A stretch of 64,000 nucleotides of DNA. It comes from Hydractinia symbiolongicarpus (Eukaryota > Cnidaria > Hydrozoa > Anthoathecata > Hydractiniidae). The notes beneath the pieces were generated by a model. It was not told the origin of the DNA, made no database searches, and saw only the letters and a list, made by a program, of their open reading frames with translations. The position numbers were made by a program, and so were the translations under genes. Positions 8,546 through 56,402 of the stretch are shown here, piece by piece (position 1 is the first letter of the stretch; every line of letters begins with the position of its first letter). Where the stretch lies: assembly GCF_029227915.1 (NCBI RefSeq), contig NC_079879.1:33732501-33796500 (forward strand), written 5' to 3'.

Positions 8546-9373
8546 TTATTCCATTGGTTCCAAGGACATTTCCATTGCTACTTTTAACATCTCTTCTTCT
8601 GACATATCATTCACATTATTCATTGGTTCGTTACTTGGCTCTGATTTTTTCTCTGCTAGTTTCTCAAAAAAGTTTAAACGCTTGTCACGAACAGCAGTAG
8701 CATCTACAGGGACTGCTGGTTCAGAGTCAATAACACTTGTTTTACCGCTTTGTTCTGAATTTTCCTTTTTTACAGAGTTTTTTAAACGTTGTGAATTTGC
8801 AAACTGTTTATAATCTTCTGTTGACACAGGACAAAGTCTAAGTAATTGCTCAGCTTCACATTCTGGAAATGTTCCAACAATGACATATATAGAATATCCT
8901 TCGGCCTGAAGTTGTGCTAATAACAAACTTAAGTATGTGTCAGAAATCAATTCAGGGTTCGACTTTATCGAGTTTAAATTAAACCACTGTTGCCCTAATT
9001 TACGTATTGTCAGCCAGTGGTTCTGTTGATTACATATATAGGCAGTTTCTGCAACAGGATTTTGTCGTGTTTGCTCAGCAGCTAGACTATTATATTGTAT
9101 CATTTCTAAGTTCCACACCTCCAAAGCTTTACAAATAACTTGAATGGAAAAATATCCACTATCATCCATGTTTGAAGAAGGCTGTTGCATAAAATTATAA
9201 TATTCTATTGAGTTTACACTACCTTCTGCCATCCTTTGGTGCTCAGCGTCATCCAAGTTTTTAGCAATGGTTGCTAAATCTACAGCATTAAAATAAGACC
9301 CTTGTAGTAGTGAATTCAAACAATGTTGTGCACACAAAGCTCCTTCCTGTTTTTCATGAAATATTGACTCCAT
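8546..9373 (-). CDS. ATXN3: Ataxin-3 (Josephin-domain deubiquitinase), single coding exon
   Basis: Ataxin-3 is a cysteine protease that trims and edits ubiquitin chains and works with VCP/p97 in protein quality control. The 275-residue frame starts MESIFHEKQEGALCAQHCLN, as in vertebrate ataxin-3. The Josephin catalytic residues are at the canonical positions: Gln9, Cys14, His119 and Asn134. QQPSSNMDDSGYFSIQVI and QQWFNLNS are strongly conserved. After the Josephin domain (about 1-180) the tail is short. A basic RDKRLNFFEKLAEKK segment matches the region next to the polyQ tract in human ataxin-3 (VCP-binding area), and SEEEMLKVAMEMSLE near the C-terminus is one ubiquitin-interacting motif that aligns with human UIM3. 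UIM1, UIM2 and the polyQ tract are absent. Vertebrate ATXN3 has many introns and this copy has none in its coding region. An AG acceptor 2 nt before the ATG points to a 5' UTR intron or trans-splicing. Confidence 0.96.
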   Translation of the reverse strand: MESIFHEKQEGALCAQHCLNSLLQGSYFNAVDLATIAKNLDDAEHQRMAEGSVNSIEYYNFMQQPSSNMDDSGYFSIQVICKALEVWNLEMIQYNSLAAEQTRQNPVAETAYICNQQNHWLTIRKLGQQWFNLNSIKSNPELISDTYLSLLLAQLQAEGYSIYVIVGTFPECEAEQLLRLCPVSTEDYKQFANSQRLKNSVKKENSEQSGKTSVIDSEPAVPVDATAVRDKRLNFFEKLAEKKSEPSNEPMNNVNDMSEEEMLKVAMEMSLEPME

Positions 9374-10882
9374 TTCTAAACATAAAAAACATACATAGAA
9401 CTATACACTACATAAAAAATTTTATAGACTAAATACAATTCAAGTATATAGAATAAGTTTATTTTTAAGTATATACAAATTTATAATTTTTCAGCATACT
9501 TTCAGGACTTCCAGGACTATCTATATAATTTTAAGTACATCAAAGTACGCCATTTTTCTTCCTGCCACATAAAACACATCTGTAAAATAAGAATACAAAA
9601 CGTAACAAATGCTGAAAGTTATATAAAAACACAAAATTCTCATTTTTTTTTTGGATAAATTTTAAAACTAAATTTTTTAACACATATATTATATAATTTC
9701 AATTTTTATGGCTGTTAATTTTTTATGCATTTTTACAAGACACATTGATAGCAGAATATCACATAGAAATATTTGTAATGAAATAAATAAATGCACCAAC
9801 AAAGTTAAAAATATTTGTTGCCATTATCCTATTCTTAAATCTACATTGTAGAAAAAGTGAGGATATTTGTAGAATAATGGAAAATGAAAGGAATCATGTA
9901 GAGTGTATAGTGACTTTAAAGTTAAATTATGAATTAAGACCTACAATGAAAGGGGTAAGAGAAATAAGAGGTGGTTCATCATCAACATCAGGATAACAAG
10001 GAGAAGACCTCAGAAATAGTGTACAATATAGCTACAACAAATGATCAAGGGAAAATACCTGCAACAAATGATCAAGGAAGAGCACCTGCATTAACAAAGG
10101 CAGAGAAAAAAAAATGGGGAAAGTAAGTCAAGATGGGCTGAAGTAGATCCTGGCGATGAAAATAAGTTTATTGGCATAATTTACCTTTAAGGTATATAAT
10201 ATTTTCTGAAAGTTGATAAAATTACCTAACAGATGATATAAAAATTATTGGAAACGAAATAAAATTGAAGACATTAACTAATGCATCCCCATTTACAAAA
10301 CTTTTAGTTTTTTATGATCAATGTTTACAGTTTTTTAATCACAACAACATTGATCTAAAACAGTCTGAAAATTATAGTGTAATTATTTTGCATTTTGAAG
10401 ATATTTTCCATTAACTTTTTTTATTGAATTACAAACCATAATTCGCTGAAAAATACGTCATGACTGGAGATCTGTTCACGTTTAGGAATCAAATTTAAAA
10501 TTGTTTTTTAGATATAACATCTTTCTTTGCAAGATGATTACATATACAAGGAGATAGGTGAGTTGCAGTATGCATATCCACAGCGTTTACTGGAATTTTT
10601 ATGAGAATTGGCACCAAGTAACATCTTAGGGGATGATGTGAGAGTGTAGATATCCCTTTGTTACAACAAATTTTATAAGATATGTATAAAATATATATAG
10701 AAATTAAAAAGCATTAAAAAATATTTATGCTGTTAGGATGGAAACCTTGGGGGTTGATAATAAATACTTTCATTTTTTTTGGAAGAATCCTGTCTTTTTT
10801 CTTCCAAGATTTATTTCCAAGATGATAAACCTAAAGATTTACATATATATTTGATCTTTTAGCACGTTCAGCTGGAAGACTG
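9374..10882. other. Intergenic; no gene seen
   Basis: This is the 5' flank of ataxin-3. A short imperfect direct repeat (ACAAATGATCAAGG, about 29-nt period, two copies near 10037-10090) is present. No conserved exon was recognised. Confidence 0.45.
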
Positions 10883-21804: not shown

Positions 21805-24800
21805 TCACAAATGATAAGGGTTGTACGTGATCCAATGAGCTTTTTGATCGCTACCACGATCTTTTTGGCCTGACGTGAACAAACTCTTATAGACTTTGCT
21901 TTTTGTATGGTCTATCACTTCATCAGAAGATTTTTCGTTACTTTTTCTTTTGTTTGCTTTTTTCGAGTGGGTTTTCACTTCCCCATTCACAGAAGTCTTG
22001 CGTTTTATTTCCCCATTTGCAGAAGTAGATTTTAAACCTATCGCTGCTGGAGGGGCAGGCATCTTGAATCCGTTTGGAGCCGTAGAGAGAGAACCATTAG
22101 TGGCTTTAGTTTCTTCTTTCAAATTTTTACTTTTCTTCTCCTTTTTTTCTTTACGAAGTGCTTTCATTTTTTCTCGTCTGTTCTTCATGTTCGTTTCCAT
22201 ATGTTCCACATCTTCGCCATCTGGATTTAGCACAATGATATTATCCTTCGAAAACTTCTCCCCGCATTTATGACAAAGTTCAGTCTCCACTTCCTTCAAT
22301 GCTCTTTCAGATAACACGCAACCACATGTCCAAATTGCACAAAACTTGTATTTACCGTTCATTTCCAAACCTGTTGAATATGATACAAAATTATGGTGCT
22401 TTTATGGCTACTTAATTGTCAAAAATTTCACGATTCAAGAAAGCTCCGGATTTTTGCATTTTTGCAGAATTAAATAACGCTGTTGACTAAATTCATTAAA
22501 TTTAATGAATTTTGCGAGAATTTATTAACGCGGATGATAAAAAATAAAATTGAGCCGAACCTTTTTGTATAATTTCAGATTTAGAATTTCTTATTTACCA
22601 TTGAATATTGACCTTAAGAGTTTATAGGAATCATAATCAGAAGTTTTGAGAAATTTAACTTTAGAAAGCGAGAACATCGCGGAATTTATTTTCGCGGTTT
22701 GTAAAAAAAAAACAAATGATAATTTGAAGAGTTTATATATAATGTGAAACAATTAAAAGAGAGTGTGGAAACTTGGATAAAACTTGCTTAAATCTCAGCT
22801 TAACAAAAATTTCATGCTACAAAAGTTAAAAAAAAAACTAAAAAAAAGTAAACGCAGATAATACAAAATTAACACATAAAGGAGATTAACTGACAATCTG
22901 CTCGTCTTAACTTTAAAACAACTTACCGACGACAGGACACACGTATTTTGATGTGTGGGTATCATAATACTGGTCAGCTAACTCCGACGAACGCTTTGCA
23001 AAACTGTTGTTTTCTGTCAAATTCAACTGCTTCACATCCTTTAAATTTCTGATATGTTGAGCACTGGTGCAGATTGTACGATCAAGAAGAAATTCAATAA
23101 CAGATTCTTTGCTAAAAATAGATTTATTTACATTTCCATTTTTTCTTAAAAAAATAAGGTAATAAACCCATTTAAATAATTGTACCTCATCGGCGCTTTT
23201 TTACGCCAGCCCTTTTTACGCTGCTACTTGAGAAATTCAGTGTAACGCCACTTAAGCCTGTGTTTTTACGCCGCTCTAATTGGAAGGTTAATGAGTGAAT
23301 TAAAGCTCCAAAGGATTTTTAGTTTTCTTAAACAACACCTTATATATTTGCACAAGATCTATTGTTTCTTGACACTGATCCTTCCCATTGTGCGACTTGA
23401 CTTCTAACAAACGTTCTTTATATGCTTTACCTTTTTCTTCTTCTGGAGGATTCCATATACAGAAAGTAACATACAAATCTTGACAGTTCTCTTGGTATGT
23501 GTTCAACTGTGACGTCACCAATACTATCGATTCGACTAATTGTAATCTTGCAACGTATCAATATGACGTTACTTGCTAGTATAATTTTATGTTTTTCTAA
23601 GTTGCTTCTCTTATACATGATAGTCTCTACTAACATACGAATCTATTTCAACCTCCTAATATTTCGGTTAATAAGAGTGCCAAATGCTACGCCACAGAAA
23701 GGTATAAGATTGGTTTGCGGAGCAAGTTCTGCAGCACTTAAACCTATGCCTAGGTTAAAAAAAGACGATTTCCTACACGACGGTAAAGTAGATGTCCGGC
23801 TAAGTAAAGCCTCATCATGCAAGATGGATTATTAACTGTATCAGCATCTAAAGAGTTCTAAAACGCTCACTCAATGTTGTTTCCGAAAAGAATACATTTG
23901 TGAGGCCCTTACTGCAACAAAAATCATTTCAGCGTATCAAGGTGATTCGTAATGTAGGTTGGTCAATAACAGATTTGAGGGTTTAAAAATTAACACTGCT
24001 CTTTAAAAAAAAGCCATATTCTTAGTCCTTTTTCTTTGTGTCAGCTATTATGCCAACTAGTAAAAATTAACGCCACTTAAGGGCGGCGTAATTAAGATTG
24101 GTAATCAATTTTCAATATTACTAAAACAGTAAACAAAATAAATTTCATCTTTTTTTATAGATTTATAGAATAAAATTTATAGATTGAAACTAAATTTCTG
24201 TAGCCAAACATTTAATAAATTTTAAAAATCTAAAACTATTCTTTTGCAAATTTTAAAACTGAGTTAACTCATTAAACTTGCATCTTGAAAAAGCATCGTG
24301 CATTAACAAAAATGTAGTCCTTTTATTGTTAATGATAACTGGATCTAAAATCAAGGACTGAAAATGTGGATAGTTAGGGCAGGGAAATCTAACAGTTCTA
24401 ACAGATATTAAAAAGTCCAGGCAATGCTTTTTTAAAAAGAATTTCCTCAAAAAAGTTAAATCTTTATTCAATTGGAAAAAGTGAATTTTTAACAAAATCT
24501 TAAATAACTGACTCAAAAAAAAGTTCTTTAACAAAAACAAATTTAAAAAATGCATAAAAATTACTTCCTATAATATGTAAGAACCAACACATCATTTAAT
24601 AAAGCATGATAAAGTTCAGTACAAGTATTCATAAAAGATAAAAAGATATACCTGTATAATTTCCCCAATTCACAAGTCATTATAGGTGTTGTTAATGCTT
24701 GCTGACTTATTGTGCAATTTGACCACTTGGCACTTCTATCCATATCTTTGTCTTTTTGTTCCGGTCTTTTGGCAGTTTTAACCAACTCATGTCGTTTCGG

Positions 24801-25437: not shown

Positions 25438-26329
25438 ATGGCAACAACAACATTGAAGGCTCCACCAGCGTTTAAAGAGGATGATGACTATAGCAGTTGG
25501 AAGAACGATTTGGAGATCTGGCAGATGTTTACAGAACTACCAAAGAAAAAGCAAGGTCCAGCTGTATACCTGTCACTGACTGGTCGGGCACGGGATCAGG
25601 ACGCGACCTGACACCTGCAGATGTTGGATCAGATGATGGTTTGGGCAAGATTATATCTAAGCTAGATTCAATATATGAAAGATGAAAGCACAAGAGCATT
25701 TACTTTATGACTATAACAGGAATAGTGGAGACAAATTTCCTGATTTTATTGTGCAGTTTGAGAAACTCTACAATAAGATATCCAAATATGATATGGCATT
25801 GCCTGAAGCTGTCAGGGCATAATTTCTTCTCACAGCTGCGAATATGTCTGAAGAAAATGAAAAACTGGCTCGTACAACTTGTGCAGAACTCAAGTATAAG
25901 AATATGAAGGACACAATCATGAAGATATTTGGAGAACTGAACACAGCAGAAGACGCTGCACATTTGGGAGCTCTTCCTGTGAAACAGGAATGCTTTTATG
26001 GAAAGCTTCATGCTGATACCAAGGACAGCTTGTCAAGGAATACACGTTCAAGAACGAATCCTGTTGATAAGGATGGGAAACTCATGAGGTGCCATGAATG
26101 TGAATCAACAAGACATTTTGCTAACAAATGTCCTCATAGAAATCAAGAGCAAAAAGGTTTCAGATCACGGAACAATAGACCTACAGAAAAGAAACAAGAT
26201 GTAAATGAGATCCATATCACCCTTTTTGCAGCCTCTCCAGACCAACGGCAATATTGTCTTGTTGGAGAATCCTTTGGTAGAGGTGTCTTGGATTCTGGCT
26301 GTACAAAGACAGTGGCTGGGGAGAAATAG
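25438..26329 (+). pseudogene. copia gag and protease start, broken
   Basis: The ATG at 25438 opens a frame that stops at TGA 25609-25611. Recognisable gag continues in other frames (25619-25685, then 25844-26329), so there are at least two frame changes. The zinc knuckle CHECESTRHFANKC (CX2CX4HX4C) lies at about 26090-26131. The aspartic protease motif LDSGCTKTVAG lies just before the stop at 26329. Protease-like sequence continues past that stop to about 26478. Confidence 0.85.
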
Positions 26330-26451
26330 ATGGATGAATATCTTGTGACTCTCTCTGAATCAGATAAAAATGCTGTAGTTTCAAATAGTACTGATTCTAT
26401 ATATAGATTTGGTGATGGAAAGAAGAAATCTAATAATACCAGTTATTCTAG

Positions 26452-27377
26452 GTGGCAACAAGTATAAATTGTCTACTTGTAAAGGATAGTAATTTGTATG
26501 ACAAGGAATTTTTGTCATGCATCGAAAAATGTTGCAATGATTGTGAAATATGTCACAAATATAAAAGGCCATACAGTAGACCAGTTGTGGGAATACCTCT
26601 GGCTAACACTTTTAATCAAGTAATATGTATGGATTTAAAAGTTTATGAACATAATAAACAACACATCTTACATATCATTGATGCTGCAACTCCTTACTCT
26701 GCTGGATGTCTTATCAAATCGAAACATAAAGATGTCATCGTCAGTAGAGTGTTTAGATTTTGGATTGCATACTTCGGATCACCAAGTACAATCTTGACTG
26801 ACAATGGTGGTGAATTTTCGAATGAGGTTTTACAAGAAATGAATGAAAAGCTCAATATTGAGACAAAAACAACAGCAGGCGAATCTCCTTTCAGCAATGG
26901 TATTGTGGAAAGACATAATAAAATTCTGGCAGAGACCATGTTCAAGACAATTGAAGATACAAAATGTGAACCAGACGTAGCACTAGCATGGGCCATCAGC
27001 GCAAAGAATTCTTTACAGAATCATGGTGGCTACAGCCCAAACCAATTGGTATTTGACCATAATGTGAACACACCCACTATGAAATAGTGAGAAAAAATCT
27101 ATCTGCTCTGCATAAGGCAAGGAAGAATTTCATTAAAGCAGAATCCAGTGAGAGAATTAAAAGAGCGCTTAGACATAATGTTAGAACATATTCTGATGAG
27201 ACGTATTTGAATGGGGAAAAAGTCTTCTACAAGCGCAAAAACACCAAGGGTTGGAAAGGTCCAGGTGTGGTTTTGGGACAAGATAGTCAAATGGTGCTTG
27301 TCAGACATGGTGGTAACTTTTACCGAGTGCATCCATGTCAGTTGATGAAACATAGCCAAAATTATAAAGTTAGTTAA
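26452..27377 (+). pseudogene. copia integrase, broken
   Basis: Only the CC half of the zinc-binding HHCC motif remains (CCNDCEICHKYKRP), because a deletion at about 26480 fuses protease to integrase. The DDE core is present: ICMDLKVYEH, ILTDNGGEF and NGIVERHNK. A stop at 27085-27087 and a frame change separate the integrase C-terminus, which continues to 27377 with GWKGPGVVLGQDSQ. Confidence 0.85.
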
Positions 27378-27413
27378 TTCAAGTCAGATCATGTCAAGAG
27401 GAAGGAAGGCCAT

Positions 27414-29441
27414 TTGAATAAGTTGTATGATATGAACGATAGTGTCAATGATTGTGATAATGATGATGATGGTGATTGTGACGGTGATGATTACGATAAT
27501 GATGATGATGATGATGACACAGCTGATAAGAATGTGATTGATGTTTATGATGATTCTGAAGATGTAGAGCAATATCATCAAGAACAAGCTAGAAATGTAG
27601 ACGAAAATGACCAAGAAGATTCTGGCACAAGTGAAAATGAAGTTGAGGAAAACAGGGATACTTATAACAATAATAAAACTGAAGAAGACGAAGGTAGTGG
27701 TTGTACAAGTGACATTTTCAGAAGACCATCTACAGAATCCAAGAAAGTTGAATCGAAACCAAAAGCAAAATCATACATCAAATACAATCTAAATGGGAGA
27801 TGGTATTGTGCAAAAGTTCTCTCAGCACAACCCAAAAGAAGTGGCACTTATAAAAATTGGGTTAATGTGCCTAATGATGGTGATAGAAAGCCAAAAAGCA
27901 TCAATTGGAATGATGTGTCCAAATGGGTCAAGCTGGAAAATCCGGAATTCCCTGTCTATATGTGTGATGTCGATATGTTTTCACAGGAAGTAGTTGATGC
28001 GAAGGAGAGAGAATTGCAAAATTTAAAAGAAAATGATGTCTTCGAAGAAGTTCCAGACACTGGTTAAGCAACTGTATCAAGCAAATGGGTCATAACTGAG
28101 AAATTTAAAGGTGAAAAAAGGGTTGTGAAAGCTAGATTGGTGGCTAGAGGCTTTGAGGAAAATTCACATTCGTTGAGAACAGATTCTCCAACTTGTGGCA
28201 AACAAAGTCTTCGACTTGCCATGGCTATCATAGTTAGCAATGATTGGCAGATCAATTCACTTGATATCACTGCAGCTTTTCTTCAGGGAGATGCTATTGA
28301 AAGAGAACTGTTTCTACAACCACCAAAAGACACATTGTCATTGGGAACAGTGTGGAAACTAAAGAGATGTTTGTATGGGTTAAACGATGCATCTAGAGCA
28401 TGGTACAAACGAGTGAGAAGTGAAATGTTGAAACTTGGTGGTGAAATGTGTACCTATGACCCTGCTGTGTTTTACTGGTATAGAGGCAAGCAAATCACTG
28501 GAATTCTTGTTTGCCATGTTGATGACTTTGTGTATGGTGGTAGTCCAGCTTTCCACAAAGATGTTATTGCTAAACTTTTCGAAACGTTCAAAATCAGTAC
28601 GCAATCGAGCTCAACCTTCAAGTATCTAGGTTTAGATGTGGATCAATTTAAAAGCCAAATTAAGATTAATCAAGTGAGCTATATAGAGTTTTTGATAACT
28701 GTTAATATTGAAAATGATGTTAACAATGAACGAAAATTGACTAGAAAGGAAAAGACCATGCTAAGATCATTGAGTGGGCAAATTGCTTGGGTGGCCGGAC
28801 AAACCCGCCCTGATGTGGCTTATGATAGTTGCCAAACGTCTAATTATGGCAAGGAACCTACAGTTCAAAATTTGAAAGATGCCAACAAGATTATTCGAAA
28901 AATTAAGAGCAAGCATGTTGCAATAACCATTGTCAAAATTGCAAATATGAAAAATTGTGAAATTATTTGCTACACAGATGCAACTCACGCCAGTTTAAAG
29001 TGTGGATCATCACAAGGTGCATTCATCATATTTGTGAAACACCTAAGCGAAGTTATACCAATCTGCTGGCAATCAAAGAAACTACAAAGGGTAACCAAAA
29101 GCCCAATTGCTTCGGAAACACTTGCTCTGAGTGAAGGAGCTGATGCTAGTTTTTATTTGGCCAATGTCATACAGCAAATCTGCAAGTTGACGAAGGTTCC
29201 AAAGATCACTTGTATTATCGACAACAAGTCATTATTTGAAACCTTGAAAACGACAAATGTCACAAAGGATTTGAGACTGCAAGTTGATATAGCCAGATTG
29301 AGGCAGATAATGGAACAAGATGAGATTACTGTCAAGTGGGTTGAAGGAAAACACCAATTAGCTGACTGCTTGACAAAACATGAAGCGTCTCCAAACAAGT
29401 TGCTTGAGGTTTTGGAGACATCCAAAATATCTCTACAATAA
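27414..29441 (+). pseudogene. copia reverse transcriptase-RNase H, one in-frame stop
   Basis: One frame runs from 27414 to 29441, interrupted only by TAA at 28065-28067. The first part is an acidic linker, almost all Asp at about 27460-27530. Reverse transcriptase motifs are VVKARLVARGFEE, INSLDITAAFLQGD, LKRCLYGLNDASRAWY and the catalytic CHVDDFVYGG (the YVDD equivalent). RNase H is seen in IICYTDATHASLKCGSSQGA and SPIASETLALSEGADAS, ending with WVEGKHQLADCLTK. Confidence 0.88.
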
Positions 29442-33639: not shown

Positions 33640-33906
33640 GCAAGCAAGAGTTCGGGGACCCATGAATCTCGGGTCCCCGCGGCAACTGCTTGACGTGATC
33701 CCGCGTCAAGCACACCTCATCCCCAGGGTCTTGCGGCCCCTGAGCCGTTATTACGGAGTGGCCGCTATCAACAACCTCGTTCCCAGGGCATTTTGCCTTG
33801 TTGATAAGTTGATCACTCCGTAATAACGGCTCAGGGGCCACAAAACCCTGGGGACGAAGTTGTGCTATTAATTTATAAACAAGACAAATGCCCTGAGAAC
33901 GAGGTT
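33640..33906. mobile_element. Cluster of nested palindromic miniature elements
   Basis: Two short GC-rich hairpins (33655-33680 and 33688-33712) are followed by overlapping inverted repeats. One pair is CCTCATCCCCAGGGT (left) against ACCCTGGGGACGAAGTTGT (right), with CCCCTGAGCCGTTATTACGG arms. The other is CAACCTCGTTCCCAGGGC (about 33774) against CCCTGAGAACGAGGTTG (ending 33906). The latter tips match those of the transposon at 35098-39971. They are probably non-autonomous relatives inserted into each other. No clean target duplications were found. Confidence 0.65.
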
Positions 33907-34687
33907 GACGCTAAGTGTGTGGCCTTTTCTTTTGATCTTGATAGGTTGTTTATTTGTAGCTTGTTTTATTAGCGTCGAACCTTTTTTCTTGGAACAAATT
34001 TGGTTAGTTAATTTTTTCAAATATACAAATATTTGTTTTCGATCGAACAGCTTGTCCCCCAATAAAGCTGATATTATACCGCATATAATCTTCCCTAGTT
34101 ATTACAGGTAATAAAATAATAAATAATAACGCAGTTACGTCGTGAGAAGCTCGCTGACTCGCACATTATTTAGTTTAGACAGTGTGCACGCGTTCTACTA
34201 TTGTGTATAGCTAGTTTGTAGATCCAACCAACCCCCAAGGCATTAGGTTATGGTAAAAACCTATTTTTCTCCAATTTTTTTTAACCAAAAGGTACTTATT
34301 ATAATTTTTTGTTAACATGGGTTTATTTGAGAGTGCACTATACTGTAACATAAAATAATAACATCAGACGGCGATACGAACTTGTTCGTCTCGCCGTCCT
34401 GAGACAAAATAAAGAGACAACAAGCGCTGGAAACGAGGTTGTTGTACACCATATGTGCGGATTTCGACTCAGCGCAGCAGCAGCGAAAAAAGATGGATTG
34501 TGTGTTATGTCTCACAGTTCCAATCTTTTGATATATACACCGTGATGGATACATCAAAAACCATAGGTAATTTTCAACCTAATCCTAAAATAAAGTGGCC
34601 ACAGATTTAATTTTGCATTTTGATAATTTATCCGAACACATCAAAAAACGCAAATTTTAGAAACTAACAATCAATCTATCCTAACAT

Positions 34688-34769
34688 CAAGCTTGACCTC
34701 AGTACCTTTTACCGTGGCGTCAGAAAGCGCAGCGCCGTTGAGAAGCAAATAGTCCTGGGGACGAGGTTG
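34688..34769. mobile_element. 82-bp miniature element with 9-bp target duplication
   Basis: It is flanked by exact direct repeats TCCTAACAT (34679-34687 and 34770-34778). The right end, GTCCTGGGGACGAGGTTG, matches the right end of the large transposon at 35098-39971; the left end starts CAAGCTTGACCTCAG and is diverged. End sequence and duplication length both point to the same transposase. Confidence 0.75.
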
Positions 34770-34802: not shown

Positions 34803-35088
34803 TTAGTGATACAATTTTATTTTTGATATATTGAATTTAAGACACTAGATGCTCTAAATATATCATTGATATAAATAAGAAACAACAGTGGTCCTAAAAT
34901 TGATCCTTGAGGTACTCCACATGTTATAATCCTGTAGTTAGTATTTCCTTCGTCATAAGAAATATATTGTTCTCTTTCGAAGAGGTAGTTCTTGAACCAT
35001 GCCAGATATGTATTTGTTATGCCATAATATTTTAGTTTTTCTAATAGAATCACACGGTTGACTGTATCGAATGCCTTGCTGAGATAAA
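34803..35088 (-). pseudogene. LINE reverse transcriptase fragment (distal part)
   Basis: On the minus strand this reads IYLSKAFDTVNRVILLEKL, then ITCGVPQGSILGPLLFLIYI, the reverse transcriptase palm motifs just before the catalytic box. It ends before any YADD-type motif. The 5' continuation lies at 40345-39981, on the far side of the inserted transposon. Confidence 0.85.
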
Positions 35089-35097
35089 TAAAGACCC

Positions 35098-35115
35098 CAA
35101 CCTCGTTCCCAGGGC
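35098..35115 (+). repeat. Left terminal inverted repeat of the helicase transposon
   Basis: CAACCTCGTTCCCAGGGC lies immediately inside TAAAGACCC. Confidence 0.85.
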
Positions 35116-35798
35116 TTTTTGTCTCTCATCGGCGCTGCGCTTATTGATAGGTCTGACGAAAAAGGCCCTGGAGGAGGCTGGTTTTATTCCGAGCCGTGAT
35201 TGGTCGAGAATTTCACCTAATTATGCGAAAGATAAAACGTCACTCGGTCCGTGAAATATTCACGCTGAAACTAACTGTAAACAATAAAGATGGCCGACAC
35301 TGTGCATACATGTTTTGTATCAGAAAAAAATATTTGAAAAATACATTTTGGCAAGAAACTTTTATGGCTTCAATTAGTTTTAACTAGTTAACTCTCAGTC
35401 CAGATGTGCTTGTATGTAACTACATGCTACTTATGCTCAAATTAATATTAGCAACTGACCAAGAGATTGTCTAGAGCTAGCTAGTTATAAAACAAGAAGT
35501 GTAGACATATATATAGTTACAGATAGATAGCTACTAGTTATTTATTATTATTATTACTACTGAACATCAGAATACAAAGTAAGCGCAGTTAGCTACATCA
35601 ACGCAAAAACAGATAAAGGATTGGATGTATTTTCCATGCTAATTACACAGATTTTACATATTGCAAGAATTCTGTTAACTCTTAAAATGGGAAGGGATTA
35701 TATATAAGATAAAAACACAAAGCTATCTATACATTTATATATATACATCTATATTGCTAAATATAAAAATTTTCTTTTTTTATTCAAGGTATAGAAGA

Positions 35799-37794
35799 AT
35801 GGCTAAGCCAGCTACTCCTAAGAAGATTTACTTTCGTAACACTTCCAATGATGGAAATTTCTGCAGGTTATGTGCCAAATTAAAACAAAAATCTTTGTTT
35901 ATAAAAATATTCAGCAATATTGGAAAAAACAAAAACATTGAGAACAAAATAAGTCTAACATGTGGGTTAAGAACAACGGAACTGGATGCTCTTCCAACTG
36001 TTATATGTCAGTCTTGTGTCACCTTTGTCGAGAAAATGTCAGACTTTCGGAAAAATATTCAACTGAATCAAATTCAGTTACGACAAAACGTGTCTGTCAA
36101 ACGTGGCATATTGTCTCCGCATAACGAGAAAAATCAAACTATTGAAAGTGAGAAAAAGAACGAAAAAGGAAAATCTAGAAAGCAACTTAACTTTGCTGAA
36201 AACAAGGAGTTAACTGAAGTTCCTACCACACAACTGCAACCACGCAATATTGTTTCTCCCGAAGACAATATACCAGCAATGCAAAAATTAAAACTGGAAA
36301 CAGCGCTTAAATCCAATAATAATATGGTAGTAGCAAATACAATCATTAACCACTGTCCAACTATATCTACATATTTGAAAAATAATTATATTAATAATTT
36401 GAAAAGTTCCTGTAAAAAACTTGCCACAAGAAAAAAACCATCAATTTTACACAAAAAGGGTATGAAGAGATGCAAAATTTTAATATTGAAAAACTGTGGG
36501 CTGAGATCAAAGAAAATCATCCATTACTTGTTGATGTTCTTAGTGCTGTGTGTGGGCAAAAGGATATTGTACTTGAAACTAAAAACAAATTTTGTTTCAT
36601 ATATTCCATACTGATGCAAATGCGGTGGCATGAACTTAGTTTATATCAGAGAGTCAACACTGTTTTGATCATTGAGGGTGGATGCAGCAAAAAGGTAATA
36701 TATAAGTCAGTAGATGTAAGATGTAAATAATGGGAAATGCTCTTGAGATTTTAACTCCGACTAATAGAAAAAGTTTCTGTTCTTATTTTGCTTTTTATAG
36801 AAAGGTGAAAATTTATCCAAAAAATTCTAAATGTATATATATATATATATTAAAACTTTTCATTAAAACATGTTTTTGGATATAAGTAAACATAACGAAC
36901 AACTAAATTAAGCTATGTTGGGTACTTATATTCTAGTTACAAGAAAGATTCAACAAACTAGGAGTATGCCTGTCACACAAGATGAAAGGAAATCTGTTAA
37001 ACTTGATTGGAAGCCACTATATGGAAAAGGCGATTGATTTAGTGAAAAACAACACAACACTCAGAGGAAGCGGCGATAACTGGGATCTGAAAGTACTAGT
37101 GGAGACAAGAAAGGGTGTTGACAACAAAGATTACCATCTTTTTGCAACAAATCTAATCGCAAACAGAATTCCTTTTGACCATCTTCCAAACAACCAGCCA
37201 ATTGGAGATATTCGATATATGGACAGGAAGAAATTTGCTGTCAATATGGCAGAATGGGAATGTTACAGACAGACAACAAAGGTTCTGATTGGAAGAATTC
37301 TGGTTGAGTTTTTCCCAAAATTTAAATTTTTAAAAAAAGTAATCCCAGATCATATTGACAACAGATTTAGTGACAAAATGTCCCAAAAGTCAACAATAAT
37401 TTCAATGCCGATCATTGATGCAAATGAAGCAAGGTATGCAGATTGTGTCGAGATCCTGCGAACATATGAGAAATGGATTGCAGAGATATACCAAAAGGCT
37501 GGTAAACTGACTGACATGCCAATTATCGACAATACACCATTACCTGAAAACACAGCTGAGCCAGGTCAATCATATTCTCATACTGTGTTTACCAACGAAG
37601 ATCCAATGAAGGACATGAAAATAATGTTTAGTGGTGATCAGCTGACACGAGTCCGTTTCGCTGGTGCGAAATCCCTATTAGCTGGGAATCACACACCAAC
37701 AGACCGGTTGGAGCATTGTTCCCCTTTCAAAGCTGCAATGTGGCACTGTAAGGCATACTTATTTATTTTATCGTATATGGTGGTAGCATATTGA
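35799..37794 (+). pseudogene. Probable transposase: N-terminal zinc finger and GDQLT-motif (DUF6589-like) protein, damaged
   Basis: The likely start is ATG 35799, just after an AG acceptor at 35789. Residues from there include a paired-Cys module (FCRLCAKL...VICQSCVTFVEKM) resembling a ZAD-type zinc finger, then a Lys-rich linker. A frame change in an A-rich run at about 36450-36463 moves the frame to the one with EKLWAEIKENHPLLVDVLSA. A GT donor at 36695 and an AG acceptor before 36937 join in frame to LQERFNKLGVCLSHKMKGN. The last part has MKIMFSGDQLTRVRFAGAKS, which I recall as typical of DUF6589 proteins repeated in cnidarian genomes. A GTAAGG donor follows at 37748 but no downstream exon is present, so the C-terminus is missing. 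A transposase role is inferred from position and repetitive nature. Confidence 0.65.
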
Positions 37795-39680
37795 TCATCC
37801 CAAACATCATATTCAAATAACAGATCATTTTTAGATCTTATAAATGGAAGTTTACTCAATAGTGTTTGAACCAAATTTTTATTGATAGATGGAAGTTCAT
37901 AAGTTTGATCAAGGGTAGTCAATAGCGAAAGTCTCCAAGTTTCAATAATTTCTTTCGGCTCAGTTTGTAAGCATTTAAAAGCATCTTCTGATACTAAATC
38001 ACGGCAAGGTAATGTTGTTTCTTTTATCAGCAAATTAGACTTTGTACAATTTGAGCAACAATTATCTTGTTCATATTTTTTAAAACCAAAGAAATTTAGA
38101 ATAAATTTCCTTAAGCACAGATCTGTTTTGCAGAAGCACTTCATGCTATCGTCAACATTATTTTTATTAACAGCAATATCTGCATTATTGTAATACAATG
38201 TTGCAGTTGAGTTTTGCCCACGCCTTCCAGCTCTACCAATTTCTTGCATGTAAGATTCAATATTGGCTGGAGGCGTTATGTGGATAACTTCAGTAACCTT
38301 TGGTGCATTAACACCCATCCCGAGTGCTGTGGTTGCAAACACAACTCTAATAGACGAATCTTGTTTTGTAATTTCATCTAAGATTTCTTTCTTCATTCTA
38401 GATGTTTGAGGAGCATGAAATTGACAAAATAGTTTTGTGTTATTTGGAGTTACTGTTTGCTGAAATAACGAATAAGCATAGCCACAATATTTTAGCTTCA
38501 TGTAAATGATTGTCATGGGATAATCATCCCGTAATTTATTTAACTCTTTAGCAATGGGAACTAAAATATCGTCATAGCTTCTTAAGCCAAAGTTGTTTCC
38601 GCGTCTTGGCAATTTCTTTAAAAATATATTTTTTCTATTTGGATTTGCAACAACAACCTTACAATAAGGACTGAAACATAGTTTCTCTTTTAAATTTTTT
38701 ATTTTACTTGGGGGTGCAGTTGCTGTCAAAGCAATCATGGGTGTGCTTGGAAAAAGAGCTTTCAGTGTGCATAATTTTCCAAAATCTTCACGAAATTCAG
38801 CACCCCTAAAACATATAAATGGAGTGTTTTTTTTAAAATTTTGTATAGCTAATATATTAGCAATTTATTATATTATGTACCAACAGATATATATTATCAA
38901 CTTGTCAAAAGATATGTTCGTTTATATTAGTTTCATTATATATTTTCATATATATATTACATATAGCTATATATATATAACAGATTTTTATACTGTATAT
39001 ATTCAGTTTTGTTAAATATTTCATATGATATGTGCTATATACATACCTACAGTACTTCATTATTATTTTATAAAATGAATTTTAAAAACCACCAAAGTTT
39101 TTTTATAATTTTATAATCTATATTCTTGAATAGCCAGCTAGAGCTAGTTTACTTACCACATTTCAACACAATGCGCTTCATCAACCACGCAAGCTACCAC
39201 ATTTTGTTGATAAATTTTGCTCTTTAAAATTGAACGCCCTTGATCAGATAAAAAGGATTCTGGATGGGCAAATAAAATCTTAATATCTCCGTTTTTAATA
39301 CCACAATCAATTGTAATATTTGTACCATCATGGTCGTCCTCCGCTGCATCATTACTTCCAAACAAGCTCTCATCTGCCTTAAACTTCCTCTGTTCCAAGT
39401 TCAATACAGCAGCAGAAAAACCAATCCCATTCAAGTATTTCACCTGATCATTTATAATGGAAGTTAAAGGGCTGATGACCAAAACAATATTCTTTTCATT
39501 TTTAACTGGGAAGAGATCAGCAAGTAAATGAAAAATAATTGATTTTCCAAATCCAGTAGGCAGAACTGCCACCACATCATTCCCCTTTAACAAAGCTTCC
39601 AAACATATGACTTGCTTTGGTTTCAGGCAAAACTGAAAAATGTAATTATTTAATGCGAAAGATATTCGCTTTAAAATATC
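37689..39680 (-). CDS. RecQ-family DNA helicase carried by the transposon
   Basis: Two exons are clear on the minus strand: about 39680-39157 and 38805-37689. They join across a GT/AG intron and restore the DEAH-box segment (DEAHCVEMW plus GAEFRED). RecQ motifs in order are motif 0 LKPKQVICLEAL, Walker A VLPTGFGKSIIF, Walker B DEAHC, motif III ALTATAPP, VVFATTALGMGVNAP, and motif VI QEIGRAGRRGQ. After the helicase core is a Cys cluster (CFCKTDLC, CCSNC) as in the RecQ zinc-binding region. Both exons are open with no stops. The first exon has no in-frame ATG before a stop at about 39690, so a small upstream start exon is expected (an ATG at 39764 is a candidate). The C-terminus at 37689 overlaps the end of the convergent gene. 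The helicase probably assists transposition or repair of the excised site; that is inference. Confidence 0.85.
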
Positions 39681-39953
39681 AATATACGTTAGAGCTTGGA
39701 GGTTAGAGCCATCACGACCTTAAGCCTTCAAGGTCCAGTCTTCACTAAAAAGTTCTATTTCCATCGATCACGATAAAATCCAGACCCTAATAATTAAATT
39801 GAAACTCGCTTACCAAAGACTAGGAAGTATAAAATTCCTGATAAACGAGACACGAGTGCATTAATTAAAAATCTGCGAAAATCAAAGATTTTTGACCAGC
39901 CTCCACCAGGGCCATGTTCGTCTCGCCGTCCGATATTCAAAAAGAGACAACTT

Positions 39954-39971
39954 GTCCTGGGATCGAGGTTG
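39954..39971 (-). repeat. Right terminal inverted repeat of the helicase transposon
   Basis: GTCCTGGGATCGAGGTTG is the inverted partner of the left end, with two mismatches near the inner side and one central. TAAAGACCC follows immediately. Confidence 0.85.
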
Positions 39972-39980
39972 TAAAGACCC

Positions 39981-40345
39981 CATTGTAAATTTCTTCTCAT
40001 CAAAGGCTTAAAATATCTCTTAACTCAACTGAATGATTGCGTGATCAGTTGACCTGCTTGAAATCCAAATTGCTTATTATACAAAATATTGTTGAAAGCA
40101 TAAACTCTGTTGTACACGATTCTCTCCAAAATCCTAGAGAAGCAGGGAAGTATTGAAATTCATCTGTAATTAGATACTTTATAAACATCTGGAACAACTC
40201 TAGCTATTTTTAACTTTTTAGGAACAATGCCTGTAATTAGAACTGAATTAAATATATGCAGTAGTGGAGATTATAGTTCATTGAAACAGTTCTTTAAGAC
40301 ATTACTGCTGATTTGATCAAAACAGGACTTTGGTTGATTTGCAAA
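39981..40345 (-). pseudogene. LINE reverse transcriptase fragment (proximal part)
   Basis: On the minus strand this reads NQPKSCFDQISSNVLKN, GIVPKKLKIARVVPDVYK, SNYR (stop) ISILPCFSRILERIVYNRV and NKQFGFQAG, the fingers part of a LINE reverse transcriptase, then FDEKKFTM at the transposon edge. Across the transposon it continues as GVFIYLSKAFDTV at 35088. It contains stops and one frame change. Confidence 0.82.
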
Positions 40346-41199
40346 GAATAAAATGCTGCCTCTAGTTCCTCCTCACTTAGCTTTTTTTCTCCATTTCATA
40401 TCATATGACAAATACGATTTGAAGGATTTTGCACTGTGGCCTATTTTTGATGCCAAGGTTGGCCCTACTTTAGTACAGAAATTGTCAAGTTCACAATTGG
40501 AGTTGTCATTTCATAAATTGTGCACACGTGAATAATCCCATTTTCCGATTTGAACTTAAAATCGGGAAAAAATTTCGGGCAATTTTCGGGAGTTTTTTAT
40601 GTAAAATATTTAAAAAATGGAAAATATGTTACACTTCAAACAGAATGTTAAAATTTGTTCCAGAACTAAAGACAAAAAAAATTATTTGGTCAAGCCTATC
40701 AAAAGTTAATGGGGTGGAGGGCGGAATCTGCTTCAAGCTAAATATCTTAGACCTCATGTTGAGTCATTTAGTCCAAAGTGTCCTCACTTGTTATGTTATA
40801 TTGCCGTCCTTGCGAAGATTGTTAAAGTCCTTAGGCTTGTTGTTTTGGTGTGAGATCACGCTTCATTAAAATGTACTGCCAACAAACAGTTTTAGTAAAC
40901 ATTCGATAAATATAGATGGATATGTTTAATAGGGTCAGATATACACTATATTAATTCTACGCACCATGCCCTCGTTACCTACTTCCAAAACTATCTCTCG
41001 AACAACAAAAGTATATATAGAGATTACAATTTCTCCACTTCTATTTTTTACACATCCACTCTATTTGTAGTATTAACAAAACTATGAACAAAATATAAAA
41101 CGTTGATTTACAAGTAACGTCAAGTAATTTTTCTAAAAAATTTCTTGTGAAGCGTCTAGTGTGGTCGCACATACAAACTATGCTGCAGCAATGTTAGTG
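40346..41199. other. Intergenic; no gene seen
   Basis: This lies between the LINE fragment and the 3' end of UNG. Short frames only. UNG's 3' UTR must extend into its right part. Confidence 0.4.
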
Positions 41200-54565: not shown

Positions 54566-56402
54566 GTAATATACAGTAATACACTGTAGCACTTAGTAAT
54601 ATGCCGTATTGTATACTGTAGTATTCGGTAATACACTGTAATACTTTGTAGTATTCAGTTGTACACTGTAATACCTTGTAGTATTCGGTAATACACTGTA
54701 ATACTTTGTAGTATTCAGTAATACACTGTAATACCTTGTAGTATTCGGTAATACACTGTAATATTTGTAGTATTCAGTTGTACACTGTAATACCTTGTAG
54801 TATTCAGTAATACACTGTAATACCTTGTAGTATTCGGTAATACACTGTAATACCTTGTAGTATTCGGTAATACACTGTAATATTTGTAGTATTCAGTTGT
54901 ACACTGTAATACCTTGTAGTATTCAGTAATACACTGTAATACCTTGTAGTATTCGGTAATACACTGTAATACTTTGTAGTATTCAGTTGTACACTGTAAT
55001 ACCTTGTAGTATTCGGTAATATACTGTAATACCTTGTAGTATTCAGTAATATACTGTAATACCTTGTAGTATTCGGTAATACACTGTAATACTTTGTAGT
55101 ATTCAGTAGTACACTGTAATACCTTGTAGTATTCAGTAATATACTGTAATGCCTTGTAGTATTCGGTAATACACTGTAATACCTTGTAGTATTCAGTAAT
55201 ATACTGTAATACCTTGTAGTATTCAGTAATATACTGTAATACCTTGTAGTATTCGGTAATACACTGTAATACTTTGTAGTATTCAGTAACACACTGTAAT
55301 ACCTTGTAGTATTCGGTAATACACTGTAATATTTGTAGTATTCAGTTGTACACTGTAATACCTTGTAGTATTCAGTAATACACTGTAATACCTTGTAGTA
55401 TTCGGTAATACACTGTAATACTTTGTAGTATTCAGTTGTACACTGTAATACCTTGTAGTATTCGGTAATATACTGTAATACTTTGTAGTATTCAGTAGTA
55501 CACTGTAATACCTTGTAGTATTCAGTAATATACTGTAATGCCTTGTAGTATTTGGTAATACACTGTAATACCTTGTAGTATTCAGTAATATACTGTAATA
55601 CCTTGTAGTATTCGGTAATACACTGTAATACTTTGTAGTATTCAGTAATACACTGTAATACCTTGTAGTATTCGGTAATACACTGTAATACTTTGTAGTA
55701 TTCAGTAGTACACTGTAATACCTTGTAGTATTCAGTAATATACTGTAATGCCTTGTAGTATTCGGTAATACACTGTAATACTTTGTAGTATTCAGTAATA
55801 CACTGTAATACCTTGTAGTATTCGGTAATACACTGTAATACTTTGTAGTATTCAGTAGTACACTGTAATACCTTGTAGTATTCAGTAATATACTGTAATG
55901 CCTTGTAGTATTCGGTAATACACTGTAATACCTTTTAGTATTCAGTAGTACACTGTAATACCTTGTAGTATTCAGTAATATACTGTAATGCCTTGTAGTA
56001 TTCGGTAATACACTGTAATACCTTGTAGTATTCAGTAATATACTGTAATGCTTTGTAGTATTCGGTAATACACTGTAATACTTTGTAGTATTCGGTAATA
56101 TACTGTAATGCCTTGTAGTATTCGGTAATACACTGTATTACCTTGTAGTATTCAGTAATACACTGTAATGCCTTGTAGTATTCGGTAATACACTGTTATA
56201 CCTTGTAGTATTCAGTAATATACTGTAATACCTTGTAGTATTCGGTAATACACTGTAATACTTTGTAGTATTCAGTAGTACACTGTAATACCTTGTAGTA
56301 TTCAGTAATATACTGTTATGCCTTGTAGTATTCGGTAATACACTGTAATACCTTGTAGTATTCAGTAATATACTGTAATACCTTGTAGTATTCGGTAATA
56401 CA
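54566..56402. repeat. 30-bp minisatellite, about 60 copies
   Basis: The unit resembles CACTGTAATACCTTGTAGTA + TTCGGTAATA. Variants at the end of each unit (CGGTAATA, CAGTAATA, CAGTTGTA, CAGTAGTA) and the CACTG/TACTG start alternate, giving higher-order periods of 60 bp and more. Each unit contains a dyad, AATAC-N6-GTATT. Because 30 is divisible by 3, a minus-strand frame stays open for 162 codons with an NTTRYYSVLP repeat; this is a by-product, not a gene. Confidence 0.95.

Follow-up and report, generated by a model that had tools for sequence, protein, structure and literature searches.

Few DNA transposons are known to carry a helicase, and we know of no study in which the role of a transposon-borne helicase in transposition has been worked out. 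The AcademH lineage of Academ DNA transposons, treated by Kojima in 2020 (Mobile DNA 11:15), reportedly occurs in animals and fungi. The present analysis concerns an element at positions 35098–39971 of a 64,000-nucleotide stretch of contig NC_079879.1 of the colonial hydrozoan Hydractinia symbiolongicarpus (Cnidaria); this whole stretch is called the window below. The element carries a RecQ helicase gene and a gene of a putative transposase with zf-AD and DUF6589 domains. It very probably represents a non-autonomous copy with an internal deletion, belonging to a young family of the AcademH type, which would move by the mechanism proposed below.

According to a 2023 paper, AcademH transposons encode a helicase and have target-site duplications of 9 or 10 bp, whereas AcademX transposons encode a nuclease, not a helicase, and have duplications of 3 or 4 bp; the difference in duplication length is seemingly tied to the encoded helicase and nuclease (PMC10045372). 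A 2013 paper cites earlier work by Kapitonov and others under the words "RecQ Helicase in Academ" (PMC3627910), and another paper places AcademH in three fungal groups (PMC10799480). A RecQ helicase is also ascribed to fungal KolobokH and to the rhodophyte Kolobok-1_CCri, in the latter on the complementary strand, in a further source (PMC9587614). The initial annotation of the locus, made from the sequence alone, regarded a RecQ helicase within an animal transposon with terminal inverted repeats as undescribed. This claim of novelty fails, since such features are already reported (PMC3627910; PMC10045372), and the element fits the AcademH kind as described there.

The genome (481 Mb) was searched using the left 203 bp of the element as a probe. 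Among the 40 of 481 candidate places that were scored, at least 16, the window's own included, matched at 99.5% or better. Twenty other copies were taken for study, and 18 of them were examined for flanking duplications, L012 and L028 being left out as having no right end within the stretch. Exact duplications flank 15 of the 18 copies, 9 bp long in thirteen and 10 bp long in two; because of repetition within the target, that of L020 is also compatible with 5 bp. In the older copies L025–L027, no exact duplication was found. The full-length copies (n = 8) are 6086–6097 bp long (6.09 kb), show 99.4–99.9% identity and contain two genes in tail-to-tail arrangement, one for a 901-aa protein with zf-AD and DUF6589 and one for a RecQ helicase of 536 aa. 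The helicase lies within all eight of these copies and is open to 536 aa in seven, the transposase is open to 901 aa in four, and both genes are intact in three; L022 was counted as incomplete because the splice pattern was not found and a stop was present in the second exon. The family is young, recently expanded and multi-copy. Two full-length copies, L019 and L023, lie approximately 1.7 Mb apart on contig C1 with the same flanks and duplication and therefore represent one insertion, the site of which was probably duplicated afterwards.

The recurrence of the units bears on the possibility that two host genes happen to lie between unrelated repeats. Several fragments with similar ends do occur within the window, but the unit as a whole is found at various places in the genome, bounded by exact duplications, so that chance flanking repeats were rejected and their probability is practically negligible. 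The lengths of the duplications likewise bear on an assignment to KolobokH, that is, to the Kolobok superfamily with a RecQ helicase. KolobokH and Kolobok-1_CCri resemble the Hydractinia family as DDE (Asp, Asp, Glu) transposons with such a helicase. Kolobok elements make TTAA duplications, whereas those of the Hydractinia family are 9–10 bp, and differences extend to the host range and the transposase superfamily. KolobokH was rejected as contradicted by duplication length and is an extremely unlikely identity for the element; it is also reported from fungi only (PMC9587614).

Three copies (L010, L012, and L018) carry further insertions, at which the matches to the element overlap by 9 bp (positions 207–215, 601–609, and 205–213, respectively). 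These overlaps look like the duplications of nested insertions.

In the window, the span of the element, its inverted ends and the exact 9-bp duplication TAAAGACCC on both flanks agree to the base with the initial annotation, and the reading of the unit as a DNA transposon that itself encodes a RecQ helicase is supported. The zf-AD finger at the N-terminus of the putative transposase and the single putative intron of each gene were absent from that annotation. The features of the locus are as follows:

34817–35088, minus strand: decayed reverse-transcriptase copy of a long interspersed nuclear element (LINE), flanking the insertion on one side
35089–35097, no strand: target-site duplication, left copy TAAAGACCC
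35098–35182, plus strand: left terminal inverted repeat, imperfect, about 85 bp
35799–36694, plus strand: transposase exon 1, zf-AD zinc finger (PF07776, 1.4e-9) and the stretch preceding DUF6589
36695–36936, plus strand: putative transposase intron (GT...AG), placed from the frame and relatives
36937–37756, plus strand: transposase exon 2 (DUF6589, PF20231, 4.5e-9), ending after ..MWHCKA at the internal deletion
37751–37757, no strand: deletion junction; GGCAT (37752–37756) is common to both sides
37752–38805, minus strand: RecQ helicase exon 2, C-terminal half with the Zn-binding Cys cluster; final residues replaced at the deletion
38806–39156, minus strand: putative helicase intron, in agreement with P0121
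39157–39712, minus strand: RecQ helicase exon 1 (motifs 0, I, Ia, and II)
39887–39971, minus strand: right terminal inverted repeat
39972–39980, no strand: target-site duplication, right copy TAAAGACCC
39981–40500, minus strand: the same LINE copy resumed beyond the insertion, its outer boundary being approximate

The inverted ends can be aligned, with mismatches, to approximately 85 bp, well past the 18 bp quoted initially. Local alignment of the left end with the right one gave a score of 72, the maximum among 200 shuffles being 49, and the inner arm (35155–35182 and 39895–39922) is 89% complementary. Within the left terminal repeat, the sequence of its terminus recurs internally in inverted form (CCCAGGG ... 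CCCTGG). Folding of the two ends as hairpins added nothing (z of −1.78 for the left end, weakly better than shuffles, and −0.47). When the flanks are joined, a LINE reverse-transcriptase block (..FIYLSKAFDTV..) is restored apart from a discrepancy of one base where they meet; the interrupted LINE copy also carries stop codons. The element is thus inserted, precisely, into an old, decayed LINE copy. Directly upstream, in the region 33712–34769, short fragments or miniature elements with similar ends (CAACCTCGTTCCCAGG) are located at 33772, 33907, 34441, and 34769.

Relative to the full-length copies, 1,238 bp are missing from the window copy. The alignment puts the gap after 37751, at the short sequence shared by both sides, and the deletion removes the C-terminal part of the transposase together with the last helicase codons. 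Two further frame breaks are present in the window copy. Exon 1 of the transposase contains 896 bases instead of 897, a one-base frame break that is also found in L019, and a 14-bp duplication in exon 1 of the helicase (element position ~4590) places the ATG out of frame; this duplication is missing from all eight full-length copies. The window copy is internally deleted and cannot be autonomous; its movement would presumably depend on proteins supplied in trans. The initial annotation had read the ends and genes of the element correctly but missed the internal deletion, the frame break of exon 1 and the 14-bp duplication.

The plus-strand protein matches DUF6589 in the profile check that had been proposed for it. 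In the window copy, the loss of the C-terminal part confines this match to profile positions 16–149 of 410. Two conserved Asp residues (GDNWD and GDQLT) are retained in exon 2, while alignments with relatives indicate that a conserved region, in which the catalytic Glu probably lies, is gone; these three residues are the putative catalytic Asp, Asp, and Glu of DUF6589. The zf-AD and DUF6589 domains are joined in a single protein of 769–922 aa in the relatives P0241–P0243, and a Pfam scan confirms both domains in P0242 and P0243. The predicted structure of the DUF6589 part of a Clytia relative ranks with Hermes (hAT), Transib, and RAG1, and for this reason the DUF6589 protein is probably a DDE transposase with an RNase H-like fold. 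This ranking comes from VIA comparison, in which caution applies to helical models. The earlier suggestion that the GDQLT protein is the transposase is probable. With hAT (Hermes), Transib, and RAG1, the protein would share the DDE fold, in which the Glu is separated from the second Asp by a large helical stretch. The duplications of those three groups are 8 or 5 bp, in contrast to 9–10 bp in the Hydractinia family.

Mutator-like elements (MULE) form the second common group of elements that make 9-bp duplications, and the family might on this ground be assigned to them. In the transposase relatives scanned, however, Pfam found zf-AD and DUF6589 only; at E up to 0.1 it gave no match to a MULE domain, such an absence being weak evidence, and the structural comparison of the predicted model ranks hAT, Transib, and RAG1. 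MULE was set aside for want of a domain match in the relatives scanned and is a very unlikely identity for the family.

Comparison of the DUF6589 profile with PDB sequences gave no matches at E up to 10, and none of 21 pattern-matching stretches in viral contigs was confirmed as a DUF6589 relative. Limited literature searches revealed no paper naming DUF6589, no work on zf-AD transposases among the titles listed, and no earlier description of DUF6589 as the DDE fold predicted here. The zf-AD (ZAD) finger is known mainly from arthropod transcription factors, and its presence in such a transposase may be new.

The RecQ helicase with its motifs and Cys cluster is present as initially described. 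The window helicase matches TIGR00614 with 6.4e-65, exactly at the cut-off of 219.8 bits, and RecQ_Zn_bind with 4.7e-4, under the cut-off of that profile; it is 98–99% identical to the H. symbiolongicarpus protein P0121. Named helicases of Dendronephthya, Montipora, Acropora, and Exaiptasia score 362–509 bits against it, and solved bacterial and vertebrate RecQs, near full-length, score 80–140 bits. By these bit scores, the helicase of the element looks like an old separate lineage and not like a recent capture.

A second Hydractinia helicase, P0125, is 48% identical to the window helicase. In a genome search with P0125, in which 81 of 469 candidates were scored, at least 105 exon-size pieces were matched on at least 14 contigs. 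A single host helicase locus, which the initial annotation had named as part of a result that would refute it, was therefore rejected; the helicase is found in all eight full-length copies of the family as well. The matches fall into several helicase groups, including ones that share approximately 97–99%, 47–49%, and 40% identity with P0125. One helicase from each of three groups besides the window's own was tested, and all three are paired tail to tail with the zf-AD/DUF6589 gene or with what is left of it: L036 has a gene 98% identical to P0242 over the whole length, L035 only the C-terminal part, and L037 two remnants. Among ten divergent stretches found with the left end (L025–L034), two (L025 and L030) carry parts of both genes, again in that order, four (L026, L027, L029, and L033) helicase parts only, and four (L028, L031, L032, and L034) neither gene. 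In six cases, a relative of the helicase and one of DUF6589 have longest contigs of exactly equal length; one such contig, of 2,214 bp, could not accommodate the two proteins unless they overlapped, and another is an entire chromosome, so no weight was put on this agreement.

This distribution is relevant to whether the helicase is passenger cargo, namely a host RecQ that was captured once by a DUF6589 transposon and has no role in transposition. The pairing, whole or as remains, in the window family and in three of three other groups argues against such a single capture, as do the 40–49% identity of the helicase groups to P0125 (apart from P0125's own), the helicase frame preserved in seven of the eight full-length copies, and the gap between the bit scores of other cnidarian helicases and of solved RecQs, which suggests an old lineage. 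In favor of cargo, six of the 20 copies (L010, L014, L015, L017, L021, and L024) are deletion derivatives that keep both ends and exact duplications, and some of them are without most of the helicase; it follows that the helicase is not needed in cis. On balance, passenger cargo is considered unlikely.

The family fits AcademH in the features that were compared, and no tested feature differs between them. Both combine a transposase with an element-borne RecQ-type helicase and have duplications of 9 or 10 bp, H. symbiolongicarpus as an animal falls within the animal or fungal hosts of the lineage, and the transposase of the family is predicted to be of the DDE, RNase H-like type, as in AcademH. 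AcademX shares the superfamily name and differs in its nuclease and duplications of 3 or 4 bp (PMC10045372), as against the helicase and duplications of 9–10 bp in Hydractinia.

In the mechanism proposed for the AcademH-type family, DUF6589 would serve as the catalytic domain, of the RNase H-like DDE type and bearing a large helical insertion. The transposase, guided by its zf-AD finger, would bind the ends of approximately 85 bp and cut there, and would then join them to target DNA with a stagger of 9, sometimes 10 bp, producing the duplications in a cut-and-paste reaction. The helicase of the element may unwind or remodel DNA in strand transfer or in the repair of gaps and of the donor break. 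Gap repair aborted at short shared sequences could yield deletion derivatives such as the window copy, which would then be mobile in trans only.

Other parts of the window contain a 30-bp tandem array at 54617–56402 (approximately 60 copies, 89% matches) and, at 25823–29441, open frames resembling by eye a Copia-type retrotransposon (integrase and reverse transcriptase). Minus-strand frames at 8546–9400 and 21805–22401 resemble by eye ataxin-3 (Josephin) and Rtf2, respectively, and are likely host genes.

The analysis suggests an identity, probably a DDE transposase, for the domain of unknown function DUF6589, and it reveals several near-identical full-length helicase-bearing copies in a hydrozoan that is kept in laboratories. 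We tentatively suggest, as a possibility with somewhat less than an even chance of being correct, that the family represents a distinct cnidarian sublineage of AcademH with a ZAD-finger transposase, in which co-evolution has bound the transposase and the RecQ helicase into an obligate pair and which has seemingly been mobile recently. THAP, BED, and FLYWCH are domains common to transposases and host regulators; if the sublineage is real, ZAD would join them, and the part of the helicase in transposition would become directly testable.

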